Below, one piece after another: positions 5,590 through 62,493 of a stretch of DNA of 64,000 nucleotides. The stretch comes from Stictocephala bisonia (Eukaryota > Arthropoda > Insecta > Hemiptera > Membracidae): NCBI GenBank assembly GCA_035578905.1, contig JAQJVL010000542.1:62001-126000 (forward strand), read 5' to 3'. A program made the position numbers and the translations under genes. The notes beneath the pieces were generated by a model. That model saw only the letters and a list, made by a program, of their open reading frames with translations. It searched no databases and had not been told where the DNA came from. Positions within the stretch are counted from its first letter, which is position 1. Each line of letters begins with the position of its first letter.

Positions 5590-5875
5590 ATGGCGTATAC
5601 TAATTTTTGTATAGATTCATATTTCCTCTAAAAAAATAAATTACTTACCTGTGATCCAATTGATTCAAGCTCAGCTCGTTCTGAAAGTTCCACCTGAAAA
5701 GTTTATTGATAAATTAATATATTTACAAAATATTTTATATAAAGAAGAGGCCATTCTTATTAGATAGAGATTGATCAGCAATGTAAAGTATTAAAAAGAA
5801 AAATCTTTAACTTGTCTCAAGTAAATTAAGGAAGATGATTATGGGATATATTTTGACAAAAACGAAAATAAATTT
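5590..5875. repeat. Intron-exon block C, copy 3
   Basis: About 285 bp that match 8335-8660 and 51120-51284 continued at 55623-55800. The block holds a 45-nt exon and its flanking intron sequence. It is bounded on both sides by pieces of the same LINE, which suggests that LINE and exon block were duplicated as one unit. Confidence 0.7.
5649..5693 (-). CDS. Microexon C3 (45 nt) of the phase-2 microexon gene
   Basis: On the minus strand the exon follows an acceptor reading AATAAACTTTTCAG and is closed by the donor GTAAGT. With phase-2 junctions it reads WNFQNELSLNQLDH. This aligns with C1 (WEFYNELGMMVLNRKDY) through N-E-L, L-N and D, and lacks 9 nt relative to C1 and C2. The phase-0 frame is also open (VELSERAELESIGSQ), but the substitution pattern among C copies favours phase 2. 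It is the most downstream exon found. No start or stop codon of the gene was located and function is unknown. Confidence 0.55.
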
Positions 5876-6118
5876 AGACTTTAGACTAGCTTTCAACGAA
5901 ACAGTTTACAAGGAGATAGAACCTATCACGAGTACAATGAAAAAAAAAAAAAAATCTCATTCCTTGGACACTTAATCAGGACACCTGAGAAGATATTAAT
6001 TAAAAATATCATAGGACAGCTATGAAACAATAAAACAAATAAAAAATGGATTGTGGAGTTAACTGAAGGAAGACATAAGAGAGGAAGATATTGGAGAAAT
6101 AGAACACCAGCAAACTTA
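5876..6118 (+). mobile_element. LINE 3' coding fragment (family L-C), partial
   Basis: It matches about 56280-56480: ACAAGGAGATAGAACC, then a long A run, then CTCATTCCTTGGACAC. The encoded phrase is FLGHLIRTPE with many breaks. It sits directly after exon block C3 and is interrupted on the right by the GA tract and Penelope-like insertion. Confidence 0.6.
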
Positions 6119-6231
6119 CCTTAGAAGACAAGTTCACTAACACCAGAGAAGTAGTAACATAAAAAAAAATAATAAAATAAACACATAATCACACAAACTT
6201 TCAATGCCACTGGCACTTTTTTCAGGTTAGT

Positions 6232-6358
6232 AGAGAGAGAGAGAGAGAGAGAGAGAGAGAGAGAGAGAGAGAGAGAGAGAGAGAGAGAGAGAGAGAGAGA
6301 GAGAGAGAGAGAGAGAGAGAGAGAGAGAGAGAGAGAGAGAGAGAGAGAGAGAGAGAGA
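6232..6358. repeat. (GA)n microsatellite, about 127 bp
   Basis: Uninterrupted GA dinucleotides. The complementary-sense (CT)n tract at 7819-7937 lies on the far side of the Penelope-like remnant, so the two tracts form an inverted pair about 1.46 kb apart. The long Ser-Leu open frames crossing it are artefacts of the repeat. Confidence 0.97.
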
Positions 6359-6689
6359 CTGACATGGCTTCCACTATTGCTGGGTAGGTGGCTGTGGTGG
6401 GGGTTGGACATCCATAGAGCAACACTCGGGTATTGTTTCAGTTTTTATCATCCAGTATATATAAAGTTTGCTGAAGGGGAAGGGGTTGAGGCGAAGTGGT
6501 CTATCTTATGTTCAGATTAGGTGGGTTACAGGATTTTGTTATGCATTGGTGTGCTCATTCCATCCCTCGGAATTAGGAACTATTGGCATGGAAAGGAAGG
6601 GATCTGATTACTTTAGTGATGTAACTCTAATCAAAATTTTGGTTATGGAGAAGAGTATGGGCAGAGGGAGGTTTTTCAGGATTTTGGAC

Positions 6690-7815
6690 TTTGCAATCAA
6701 CACCAAACCTAGCACTTCCTTCCTAGTTCAGTTGACTAAATTCATCCTTGAATAAAACCACTTCCAAAGTTCTGGCATCAACTACTTCCAGATCAAGGAT
6801 ACTGCTATGGGTACCCGCATGGCCCCTTCCTATGCCAACCTATTCATGGGGAAATTGGAAAAGACTTTCCTTCAAAAAAAGCCCGTCCAACACCTCTGCT
6901 GGCTCCGTTTCATCGATGATATTTTCATGATCTGGCTGACTATGAAACCAATCTTGAAACCTTTATTCAAAGCCTACAACACTTTTCATCCCTGAATTTC
7001 ACCTGGCAATCCTCTTCTGAACGCATAGTCTTCCTTGAAGTTGAAATTGGATTGGAGGATGGTGTCCTTCAAACTGATATTCACATCAAACCTACCAATA
7101 AACCAAAATAACTTCACTATACCAGCTATCACCCCAACAACACTAAACGCTCCCTTCCATATAGCCCAGCCACTCATGCCAAACATATCATTACCTCTCC
7201 CAGAAACCTAAATAAATACAATAACCAACTTGTCAGTGCATTCCAAAAGAGAGGTTACCTTACCAATCTTATTAAAAACCAAATCCGTTTAGCCCAGTCC
7301 CAAAACTAACCCCAATCCAGAAGTAGTTCCCGATTCTTACCCCTTGTCACTAATTATCACCATGGCCTACAGAAACTCAACCAAATCCTGAAAGATGGCG
7401 TCAACATCTTAAAAGCTTCCCCTCATACCGAAGATCTCCTTGAAAAACCCCCTACTGTGACTTTCAGGCAAAACTAAAACCTCCGCTAAATCTTGGTCCA
7501 TCCTAAGTTACCTGATCCCAACATCCTGACCTGTCCTAGAGACCAGCAACCACCCGGTTCTAATCCTTGTAACAAGAAATCTTGCAGAACATGCCCTATT
7601 CATCTCCCAGCCACATCTTTTACCAGCTCCACTACCTCCTTAACCTACAATATACCAGGAAACCACTCCTATGATTCCACCAATCTAATTTATCAACTCC
7701 AGTGCCAGCACTGTCTTCCCAAATATAACGGCCTTGCCAGTGAAACCCTTTGAAACGCATGAATGGTCATAGACATGATTGCAAAGTCCAATATTTTGAA
7801 AAACCTGTCTCTGCC
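6690..7815 (+). mobile_element. Penelope-like element (PLE) remnant: RT plus GIY-YIG linker
   Basis: A decayed PLE coding region. Reverse transcriptase starts near 6708 (FLVQLTKFILE, an in-frame TAA at 6753, then INYFQIKDTAMGTRMAPSYA). It continues through FIDDIF, a box such as RIVFLEVEIGLEDGVLQTDI and a KPTNKP block. A cysteine-rich linker follows (PCNKKSCRTCP), then a degenerate GIY-YIG nuclease (LIYQLQC, YNGLASETL, RMNGH). The overall order RT - CCHH-like linker - GIY-YIG is diagnostic of PLEs. Several stops and shifts make it non-functional. It splits the LINE pieces around exons C3 and C2. Confidence 0.85.
6708..7800 (+). pseudogene. PLE reverse transcriptase/GIY-YIG polyprotein, broken
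   Basis: The protein would prime and copy element RNA and cut target DNA with its GIY-YIG domain. The RT catalytic box reads FIDDIF at about 6909-6926, with both Asp kept. Upstream, GTRMAPSYANLFMGKLE is the strongly conserved PLE RT motif. Breaks include a TAA at 6753, a stop after KPTNKPK near 7110 and stops near 7300 and 7475. The nuclease has YNG where YIG is expected. The N-terminal part of the RT is missing. Confidence 0.8.
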
Positions 7816-7818
7816 CAT

Positions 7819-60349: not shown

Positions 60350-60800
60350 GTATTTTAAGGCTGTTTTGTTGGTATATGAGTGTAGGATGAGTGTGGATGA
60401 GTGTAGTCTGATTACTAACTGAGTTAAACTGTTCCTCAGTTAGGGCAATTTATTAATAGCCCAACAGCCAGGGCAACTAAGGGACCTACAGCTTTACGTG
60501 GAATCCGAATCACGTAGTGCTGGTCTGATTTTCAGCTAATTGACAAGCCCGATACTCAGTTATCTCCCCCCACACAAGATCCGCACAATGATTACCACCT
60601 AACCCGGACACCCCAGACTTCTCTAGTAGTGTCCACGTCGATAGCAACCATCAAGCGGACACCATGTCGGTATGAAGAGGACCGAGCATCCAACCTGTTG
60701 CCTACAATCTCCCAAACACTTTGTCCCCATGTAGCTGGGTTACAGCACTGCGCCGAGAGGAAGTTATCTAGCCTATGCTGTATTTGTACAATAAATCTTC
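60350..60800. repeat. Dispersed repeat R, copy 2 (best copy)
   Basis: It is collinear with 34430-34760 over about 330 bp, then extends 70 bp. The left end GTAGGATGAGTGTGGATGAG also matches the left end of the 50360 copy and the tail of the tRNA-SINE at 14940-14990. It may be a longer, SINE-related element. Confidence 0.7.
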
Positions 60801-61162
60801 CCAACGAATAACATAAACATTTTTGGATGATTTTTGATATGAACATCTGTATATATGGTTTGATATTATTGTGTTGATTGATTCCTTAGAAATATTATGT
60901 AAATAAAGTATAATGTTTTTGTGTGTTCAATGTTTTGTAATACCGGTACATATTAACTGAGAACTATTTAATCTTTTTGCCCACTTAGAAATATGTTGAG
61001 AAAACGTCAACAACTTTTAGAAGAAGGGGAGCAGCATTGGAACTATTTTAAACTGAAAAAGAGTTGAGAGATAAATGTATTACCTATTCCGATATTTTTA
61101 CAACCAGAGAAGAAAAATGTTGTAAAGTTCTTCTTCCTTCAAAATCAAAATCTTGAATGAAC

Positions 61163-61276
61163 ATTCTTAGGGTCTCTGGTTAACACACAGGCCTATCTTT
61201 ATTCTTAGGGTCTCTGGTTAACACACAGGCCTATCTTTATTCTTAGGGTCTCTGGTTAACACACAGGCCTATCTTT
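61163..61276. repeat. 38-bp minisatellite, 3 identical units
   Basis: ATTCTTAGGGTCTCTGGTTA begins at 61163, 61201 and 61239. Units are identical by eye, so the expansion is recent. Confidence 0.95.
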
Positions 61277-61785
61277 ATTTTGAAATTCTATCAGAGCACC
61301 ACCCCAAGGGCTCTAGGATCGATGCAATCCCTATGGCAATACCAACTTGATAATTGTTTATAATAGTTTAATTAATCAGCTGTTGGGATAAACAAACAGC
61401 TTACATTGTTCTGAAACACGGTAAATAGAAAAGATGGTAGGTATTTGATGATCAGCCCATGTAACAAGGCTGTGCTGTAGACTGTCACGTCACATGGGTG
61501 AAATCAACCGATTTGTTTATTCTATTAAATACTATTAACTAAATCTACCAATTACATAGAAGCAATTAGATTATACTAATCAAAATAATACTATTTTTGG
61601 ATAATTATTTTTTATTTATATTTTAATGCGTTATTGGTATTAATCAGTTTTAATCTTTAGTGTATCACAGTAAACACAACTGCTGTAAATAATTGCTTCC
61701 TCAAATGTCCCAACCAGTCTTAAACAATAATTACTATACAAATACAACATGCATAATTCAAACAGAATATGACACAAATACTTAC

Positions 61786-61863
61786 ATTACTTGGTGACTT
61801 TTGGTTTCCTTTTTGCTGATGTTCTGGGCAAAAATAGGGATCAAACTCTTCATAAATTTCTTT
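61786..61863 (-). CDS. Microexon B1 (78 nt) of the phase-2 microexon gene
   Basis: Minus-strand acceptor CATATTTTCTTTTAG, donor GTAAGTATTTG. The phase-2 frame begins KKFMKSLIPIFAQNIS, continues KKETKSHQV and is fully open. It is 6 nt longer than B2. The first two thirds are nearly unchanged between copies and the last third is diverged. In transcript order it follows A1 after a 567-bp intron. No known domain is recognised. Confidence 0.6.
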
Positions 61864-62430
61864 CTAAAAGAAAATATGTTTTTGAATAAGTTTTGGGAAA
61901 TCCAAGTCAAAATAATGACATTACATTATTTAATAGTTATCAAGTTTGCAAGATATATAAGGAGGAGTTAAATATAAAATTGATTTTTTTAAATTGTAGG
62001 TTATGCCTAAACAGCTAGTTTGAAAGAAATGCTGTAAAAATTGTAACACATCAGTGTTATATTAATGGGAAAAATAATATTTCTTATTTCTAGTACAGTA
62101 TACTCTCAGTAGTCCAGATCGGACTCTTCATAAATTGCTGTTGGCTAAAATAAAATAATTTTTATCGAAATCCAAGTTAGAATAGCAATTGTAAATTATT
62201 TAATAGTTACCAAGTCTGAAGGTATTTCAAAATGTGTCAAATATACTAATGTTTGTTTTATTATAGGTTATGCCTTGACTGATAGTTTAAAAGTACCAAA
62301 ATAAAAATTGTAATACATTGAAGTAATTTAATGGGCAAAATAAAATTTCTTAATTTTTACTCGATACTGGTTCGTTGGTTTATACTACATTTTTTAATAC
62401 ATATTTGTTCTGAAATAATAAATTACTCAC

Positions 62431-62493
62431 AGGTGGGCTACGAGAAGTTTGATAAGGTGCGCTTCTTCCAACTGGTGACAAATGACCTTGTGG
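62431..62493 (-). CDS. Microexon A1 (63 nt) of the phase-2 microexon gene
   Basis: Minus-strand acceptor TTTGTTAACTTTTCAG, donor GTGAGT. The phase-2 frame reads as A2 but with Ala for Gly in the LEEGHL segment, from one base difference in 63. It is the most upstream exon found on the minus strand. A signal peptide or start codon would be expected at higher coordinates, but none could be supported before the window edge. Confidence 0.6.

Follow-up and report, generated by a model that had tools for sequence, protein, structure and literature searches.

A window of 64,000 nucleotides (nt) from the genome of the membracid Stictocephala bisonia (assembly GCA_035578905.1, contig JAQJVL010000542.1, positions 62,001 to 126,000 of the forward strand) has been analyzed, and all positions given here are counted from its first letter. 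Seven short exons predicted on the minus strand of this insect DNA (Table 1) probably form an internal part of a protein-coding gene, which may be present once or as two copies in tandem. A preliminary description of the sequence had proposed seven exons of 45-78 nt with AG acceptors and GTGAGT/GTAAGT donors, ordered A-B-C and then A-B-C-C along the minus strand, and the same positions, borders and order were found in this analysis. Their lengths (61 nt on average) are divisible by three in all seven cases, and the copies differ in length by 6 nt (B exons) or 9 nt (C exons), also as described. If the exons are joined in order, the introns measure 567, 10,539, 32,347, 6,405, 3,851 and 2,707 nt. 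Pyrimidine tracts are present before the exons as claimed, but they are weaker at C3, B1 and B2, and these three exons were missed by the stricter of the scans carried out.

Table 1. Predicted exons, decayed exons and the retrotransposon upstream of exon C1.
Feature	Position	Strand	Length (nt)	Sequence	Remarks
Exon A1	62431-62493	minus	63	PQGHLSPVGRSAPYQTSRSPP	phase 0
Exon B1	61786-61863	minus	78	KEIYEEFDPYFCPEHQQKGNQKSPSN	
Exon C1	51193-51246	minus	54	LGILQRAWDDGLEPKRLL	
Exon A2	18783-18845	minus	63	PQGHLSPVGRRAPYQTSRSPP	
Exon B2	12306-12377	minus	72	REIYEDFDPYFCPEHQRGRNKITN	
Exon C2	8401-8454	minus	54	VQLLERAVHEPLESIGSQ	TAG in the intron-phase-2 frame
Exon C3	5649-5693	minus	45	VELSERAELESIGSQ	
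Decayed exon D1, B-like	62106-62144	minus			good acceptor, end without GT donor, TGA in frame 0
Decayed exon D2, B-like	12625-12672	minus			weak donor GTACTA, frame 0 open
Gypsy-type long terminal repeat (LTR) retrotransposon	51285-55622	minus			38 nt upstream of the C1 acceptor

A strict scan of both strands, in which an AG acceptor, a run rich in pyrimidines, a frame open over 45-78 nt and a GTRAGT donor were required, gave four matches on the minus strand (A1, C1, A2 and C2) and none on the plus strand. The loosest scan (AG, pyrimidines, an open frame of 30-120 nt and GTRAGT) returned three candidates on the plus strand and 15 on the minus strand, the latter including all seven exons together with nested variants and rows located in transposons or in a 47-nt satellite. 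The motif shared by the A and C exons on the acceptor side occurs five times, always at these exons, and the motif on the donor side seven times, five of them at these exons; neither count was reached in any of 100 shuffles.

Frame 0, which corresponds to intron phase 0, is open in the seven exons. When one base is skipped (intron phase 2), six of them stay open, and when two are skipped (the other phase-2 convention), all seven contain stops. In coding DNA of AT-rich genomes, the GC content usually falls from the first to the third codon position, and frame 0 yields 88/143, 64/143 and 27/143 at positions 1, 2 and 3 over the seven exons (0.62, 0.45 and 0.19), with 0.27 in the flanks. In A1 and A2 alone the second position (0.71) exceeds the first (0.62) and the third is low (0.14). 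The codon periodicity of A1, B1, C1 and C2 was matched by none of 20,000 within-exon shuffles; since the seven exons are paralogous to one another, they do not count as seven independent witnesses of the frame. The intron-phase-2 reading would place a GC content of 0.19 at the second codon position overall and, because such a value would be odd there, the exons are considered symmetric but not phase 2. Phase 2 was discarded on account of both the stops and the codon-position composition, so that the proposal of symmetric phase-2 exons is retained for the symmetry and corrected to phase 0. The codon-position GC, the in-frame length differences between paralogues and the excess of minus-strand matches in the splice scans make the seven exons look coding.

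The A and C exons are interpreted as copies of one cassette because they share the introns on their splice sides. In the six A-C pairs, identity is 0.83-0.91 over 36 nt upstream and 0.65-0.85 over 65 nt downstream, with exon bodies that align at 0.43-0.55 only; this contrast between flank and exon appears in every pair (Fisher p from 6.5e-8 to 0.0045, for pairs that are not independent). A change-point search for a low-identity block between paralogues, run blind to the exon ends, placed the two limits of the block no more than 4 nt away from those ends in A1/C1, A1/C3, A2/C1 and A2/C3. The blocks were 62492-62435 and 62493-62431 when A1 (true exon 62493-62431) was compared with C1 and C3, and 18844-18787 and 18845-18783 for A2 (true exon 18845-18783). 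In A1/C2 and A2/C2 the block begins inside the exon, and agreement (to within 5 nt) is limited to its 3' side.

Both blocks contain a B-like exon, D, that lacks a good donor, and intron A-D is a paralogue of intron D-B (165/227 identical). An organization in two cassette types, A/C and B/D, arranged in a repeated block, is supported by these likenesses; weak extra matches to further cassettes were present in the window, none of them convincing. Pieces flanking C2 and C3 recur at 56.2-56.9 kb as direct repeats and are read as RTE-like. In the simplest history, the cassettes would have been copied to form a block A-D-B-C, the block would then have doubled, and C would later have doubled between direct repeats. 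The decayed exon D and the old Gypsy insertion before C1 would be consistent with an expanding gene. An RNA structure in the cassette flanks received no support, with none of 24 pairs showing compensatory change and an unfavourable covariation term; there was no match in Rfam, and the cassette acceptor pattern had no matches in the collections of prokaryote and viral contigs, which may exclude records of the genome that the window comes from.

The rate of change was compared with that of distant introns, which in C1/C2 are identical at 617/739 sites (16.5% differ). The C1 and C2 exons differ at 18 of 54 sites, which is faster than the 0.165 of the distant introns (P 0.0019) and represents about a twofold excess, and their near flanks differ at only 8 of 106 sites, which is slower (P 0.0056); the near-flank test took in 34 of the 38 nt between the Gypsy insertion and C1. 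That stretch has kept its sequence (33/34). By contrast, A1 and A2 differ at one of 63 exon sites against 0.128 in their flanks (P 0.0018, slower), and the A exon is under constraint, as judged from this pair of copies. Diversifying selection on the C exons is suggested, not proven, by these few sites. First omega estimates (8 for C1/C2 and 5 for C1/C3), which indicated strong selection on C, took their neutral yardstick from the near flanks or from an assumed distance, and they were dropped when the near flanks proved to be conserved. This conservation of splice-proximal introns would fit regulated splicing. Genes of snake toxins show accelerated change in exons and conserved introns; the locus resembles them in that its introns have stayed more similar than the exons between them, an analogy that implies neither a toxin fold nor a relationship.

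Several results weigh against the interpretation as a cassette-built gene with changing C modules. B1 and B2 change at the rate of their introns (p 0.56), and the C2 and C3 exons (41/45 identical) behave like their own introns (358/387 and 157/171). Fast coding change, as named in the preliminary description, holds for C1 versus C2 and not for A, which is slower than its flanks, for B or for C2/C3, which shows no departure. Changed codons in frame 0 were counted in A1/A2, B1/B2 (first 60 nt), C1/C2 and C2/C3 (with the 9-nt gap excluded), giving 22 nonsynonymous and one synonymous; this excess is marginal, as a neutral simulation expects 4.3 silent changes (P 0.059), and the intron-phase-2 frame gives 17 and two (P 0.22). 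The change-point block of A2/C3 is weak (equalled by 25 of 200 permutations), none is seen in C2/C3 (170 of 200 permutations), the block of C1/C2 and C1/C3 opens at the exon 5' edge (51246) and extends into the donor-side intron, and the divergent block of A1/A2 lies in the upstream intron and not in the exon. The exons are predicted from the DNA, and a gene start, a signal peptide and a stop were not recognised in the window. Finally, no homologue of the exons was found by a search that favoured proteins of similar length, a weak negative because multi-exon homologues of unequal length are hardly findable that way.

Other searches with the exon peptides were also negative. In Pfam, two of the three exons scanned (A1, B1 and B2) had one match each below the cut-off, to the reovirus sigmaC spiral (E 0.07-0.09), and these are regarded as chance matches; the absence of transposon-protein matches claimed previously applies to these three exons. 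The PDB gave no match for A1 or B1, the two exons searched, and B1 extended into its intron (47 amino acids) gave no candidate. Four exon peptide strings had no match in the literature searched where, among the matches listed, bicycle genes were the only insect genes of such structure.

With a GC content of 0.29-0.39 in 4-kb steps, the window is AT-rich; it is crowded with transposon remains, and a stretching of the introns by transposons is supported by the sequence. The Gypsy-type element in front of C1 has LTRs at about 51285-51566 and 55321-55622 that are identical at 258/285 sites, a 5-nt target duplication (ATTTT) and a pol remnant at 53511-53906. An open reading frame (ORF) at 41360-41695 on the minus strand, taken at first as a coiled-coil exon of the gene, was rejected and re-read as ORF1 of a long interspersed nuclear element (LINE), because a finger-like stretch lies just upstream and LINE-like ORFs are nearby; its Pfam matches were all below the cut-off (coiled-coil and other families) and those in the PDB were at chance level.

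Further repeats lie between and beside the exons. The stretch between C3 and C2 contains long simple repeats in opposite orientation (6232-6361 and 7816-7945), and that between A2 and D2 contains head-to-head pieces arranged as inverted repeats (17069-18456), read as Penelope-like. An inverted repeat of about 890 nt (19848-20736 and 20928-21817, 97%) forms a fold-back pair read as Helitron helicase, and transposase remains of the Tc5/CENP-B type occupy two adjacent ORFs at 31603-32874, the first with PF03221, PF04218 and PF03184. A tandem array of a 47-nt unit is located at 39564-41038, with an inverted piece of the unit at 37025-37197. LINE remains extend over 1259-3683, with a reverse transcriptase (PF00078) in 2268-3683; among the best 120 of at least 163 relatives of the LINE ORF, the top ones are 64% and 55% identical and the nearest named ones belong to the planthopper Nilaparvata lugens (52%) and the leafhopper Graphocephala atropunctata (56% over three quarters). 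With identities of this order, they give no more than a hint of a hemipteran source related to planthoppers or leafhoppers. Another transposon-type ORF has 89 relatives, the named ones being from moth, beetle, aphid, mealybug, spider and one bin labelled as a cyanobacterium, with 34-42% identity for those of aphid and mealybug.

Bicycle genes of aphids, phylloxerans and scale insects have many small internal exons, almost all of phase 2, and include a megacycle gene enlarged by internal tandem duplication, according to PMC9168663, where a linear classifier of gene structure with published coefficients and a cut-off of 0.72 is also given. Many small symmetric internal exons and fast coding change are the features in common, the small internal exons being represented here by the seven of Table 1; the locus differs from the phase 2 of those genes in its phase 0, with a mean exon length of 61 nt. 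With the formula checked on an invented typical bicycle gene that scored 0.99, the classifier was run over 36 combinations of assumed exon number, first and last exon and gene length, and the score rounded to 0.0 in the 18 phase-0 settings and reached 0.16 at best in the 18 phase-2 settings, all of them with assumed gene ends. The bicycle-type interpretation put forward in the preliminary description is not supported, as the phase differs and these scores, on assumed gene ends, are far below the cut-off; by phase the locus is not a bicycle gene. A divergent salivary effector gene of that type in a sap-feeding insect, read in phase 2 and with C2 dead, is very unlikely, although it would share the many small symmetric exons, the long introns, the fast change of C1/C2 and a phase-2 frame open in six of the seven exons. 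Apart from the scores, it is opposed by the GC of the codon positions, which fits phase 0, by the stop in C2, by the stops that the other phase-2 convention produces throughout, and by the cysteines, of which frame 0 has one in B1, one in B2 and none in the other five exons; no cysteine pair is present in the exons, which represent part of the protein. Bicycle genes are further characterized by CYC motifs, by a signal sequence at the N terminus and by expression in salivary glands. Just as improbable is a multi-copy mobile element whose fragments resemble exons. The A/C homology spans only about 200 nt in a region rich in transposons, but just five A/C cassettes occur in the 64 kb, on one strand and in block order, and identity is lowest in the middle of the cassette, roughly at the position of the open frame and splice sites. 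The earlier claim of a real microexon gene and not a transposon is supported by the coding periodicity, the divergence bounded by the exons, the in-frame length differences and the lack of transposon-protein matches for A1, B1 and B2 in Pfam.

More weight, although it is still somewhat unlikely, is given to a gene with an ordinary internal role (muscle, cytoskeletal, adhesion or neuronal) that contains a modular region subject to alternative splicing and is not involved in an arms race. Alternatively spliced modular regions usually have phase-0 cassettes and conserved splice flanks, as found here, and the nearly fixed exon A and the marginal nonsynonymous excess point in the same direction; however, the C1 and C2 exons outpace the distant introns, and the bodies of the A and C exons share little despite their common flanks. 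It is quite possible, and compatible with the interpretation as internal coding exons, that the locus consists of at least two gene copies in tandem (A-B-C and A-B-C-C) instead of a single gene, as the exon order recurs in blocks and 32,347 bp separate C1 from A2. Against this, neither a first nor a last exon was recognised in that gap, for which a reliable method of finding one was lacking, and the C-C pair indicates that cassettes were copied within a block too.

Schistosome micro-exon genes (MEGs) have, according to PMC10526429 and PMC4350168, long introns and short symmetrical exons that are mostly multiples of three and do not exceed 81 bp, and in three of them the mature parts have a ratio of nonsynonymous to synonymous change (dN/dS) slightly above 1. 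Short multiple-of-three exons and long introns are encountered here as well (45-78 nt, and 567-32,347 nt when the exons are connected in their order), whereas most MEG exons are of 15 bp and belong to a flatworm; the exons found here have arthropod surroundings, and the comparison is of structure only. Fast, modular and symmetric microexons would be common to the locus, to bicycle genes and to MEGs.

If the seven sequences are internal coding exons, the gain, loss or skipping of a cassette would leave the frame intact, because all seven are symmetric and of phase 0. The product would be a modular, probably unstructured repeat protein rich in Pro, Ser and Glu, in which the C modules may be in the course of being rewritten, perhaps by diversifying selection, and the A module would stay fixed. 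As a guess, the protein would be secreted or located at a surface and engaged in an arms race, and its cassettes would be alternatively spliced. A new gene family is possible. That it constitutes its own phase-0 microexon family, in a sap-feeding insect of a line other than that of the aphids, producing variable secreted proteins by copying cassettes whose splice-side introns are kept and whose exon bodies are rewritten, and invented in parallel to bicycle genes and MEGs, is a speculative proposal that we regard as unlikely.

If spliced as predicted, the locus would contain exons that change faster than the adjoining introns, and new protein modules would have arisen by duplication with their splicing signals retained. 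If the product is a salivary or surface protein, fast-evolving genes of the microexon type would occur in one more line of insects, where the phase of the exons differs, and structure-based classifiers trained on phase 2 would overlook such genes.

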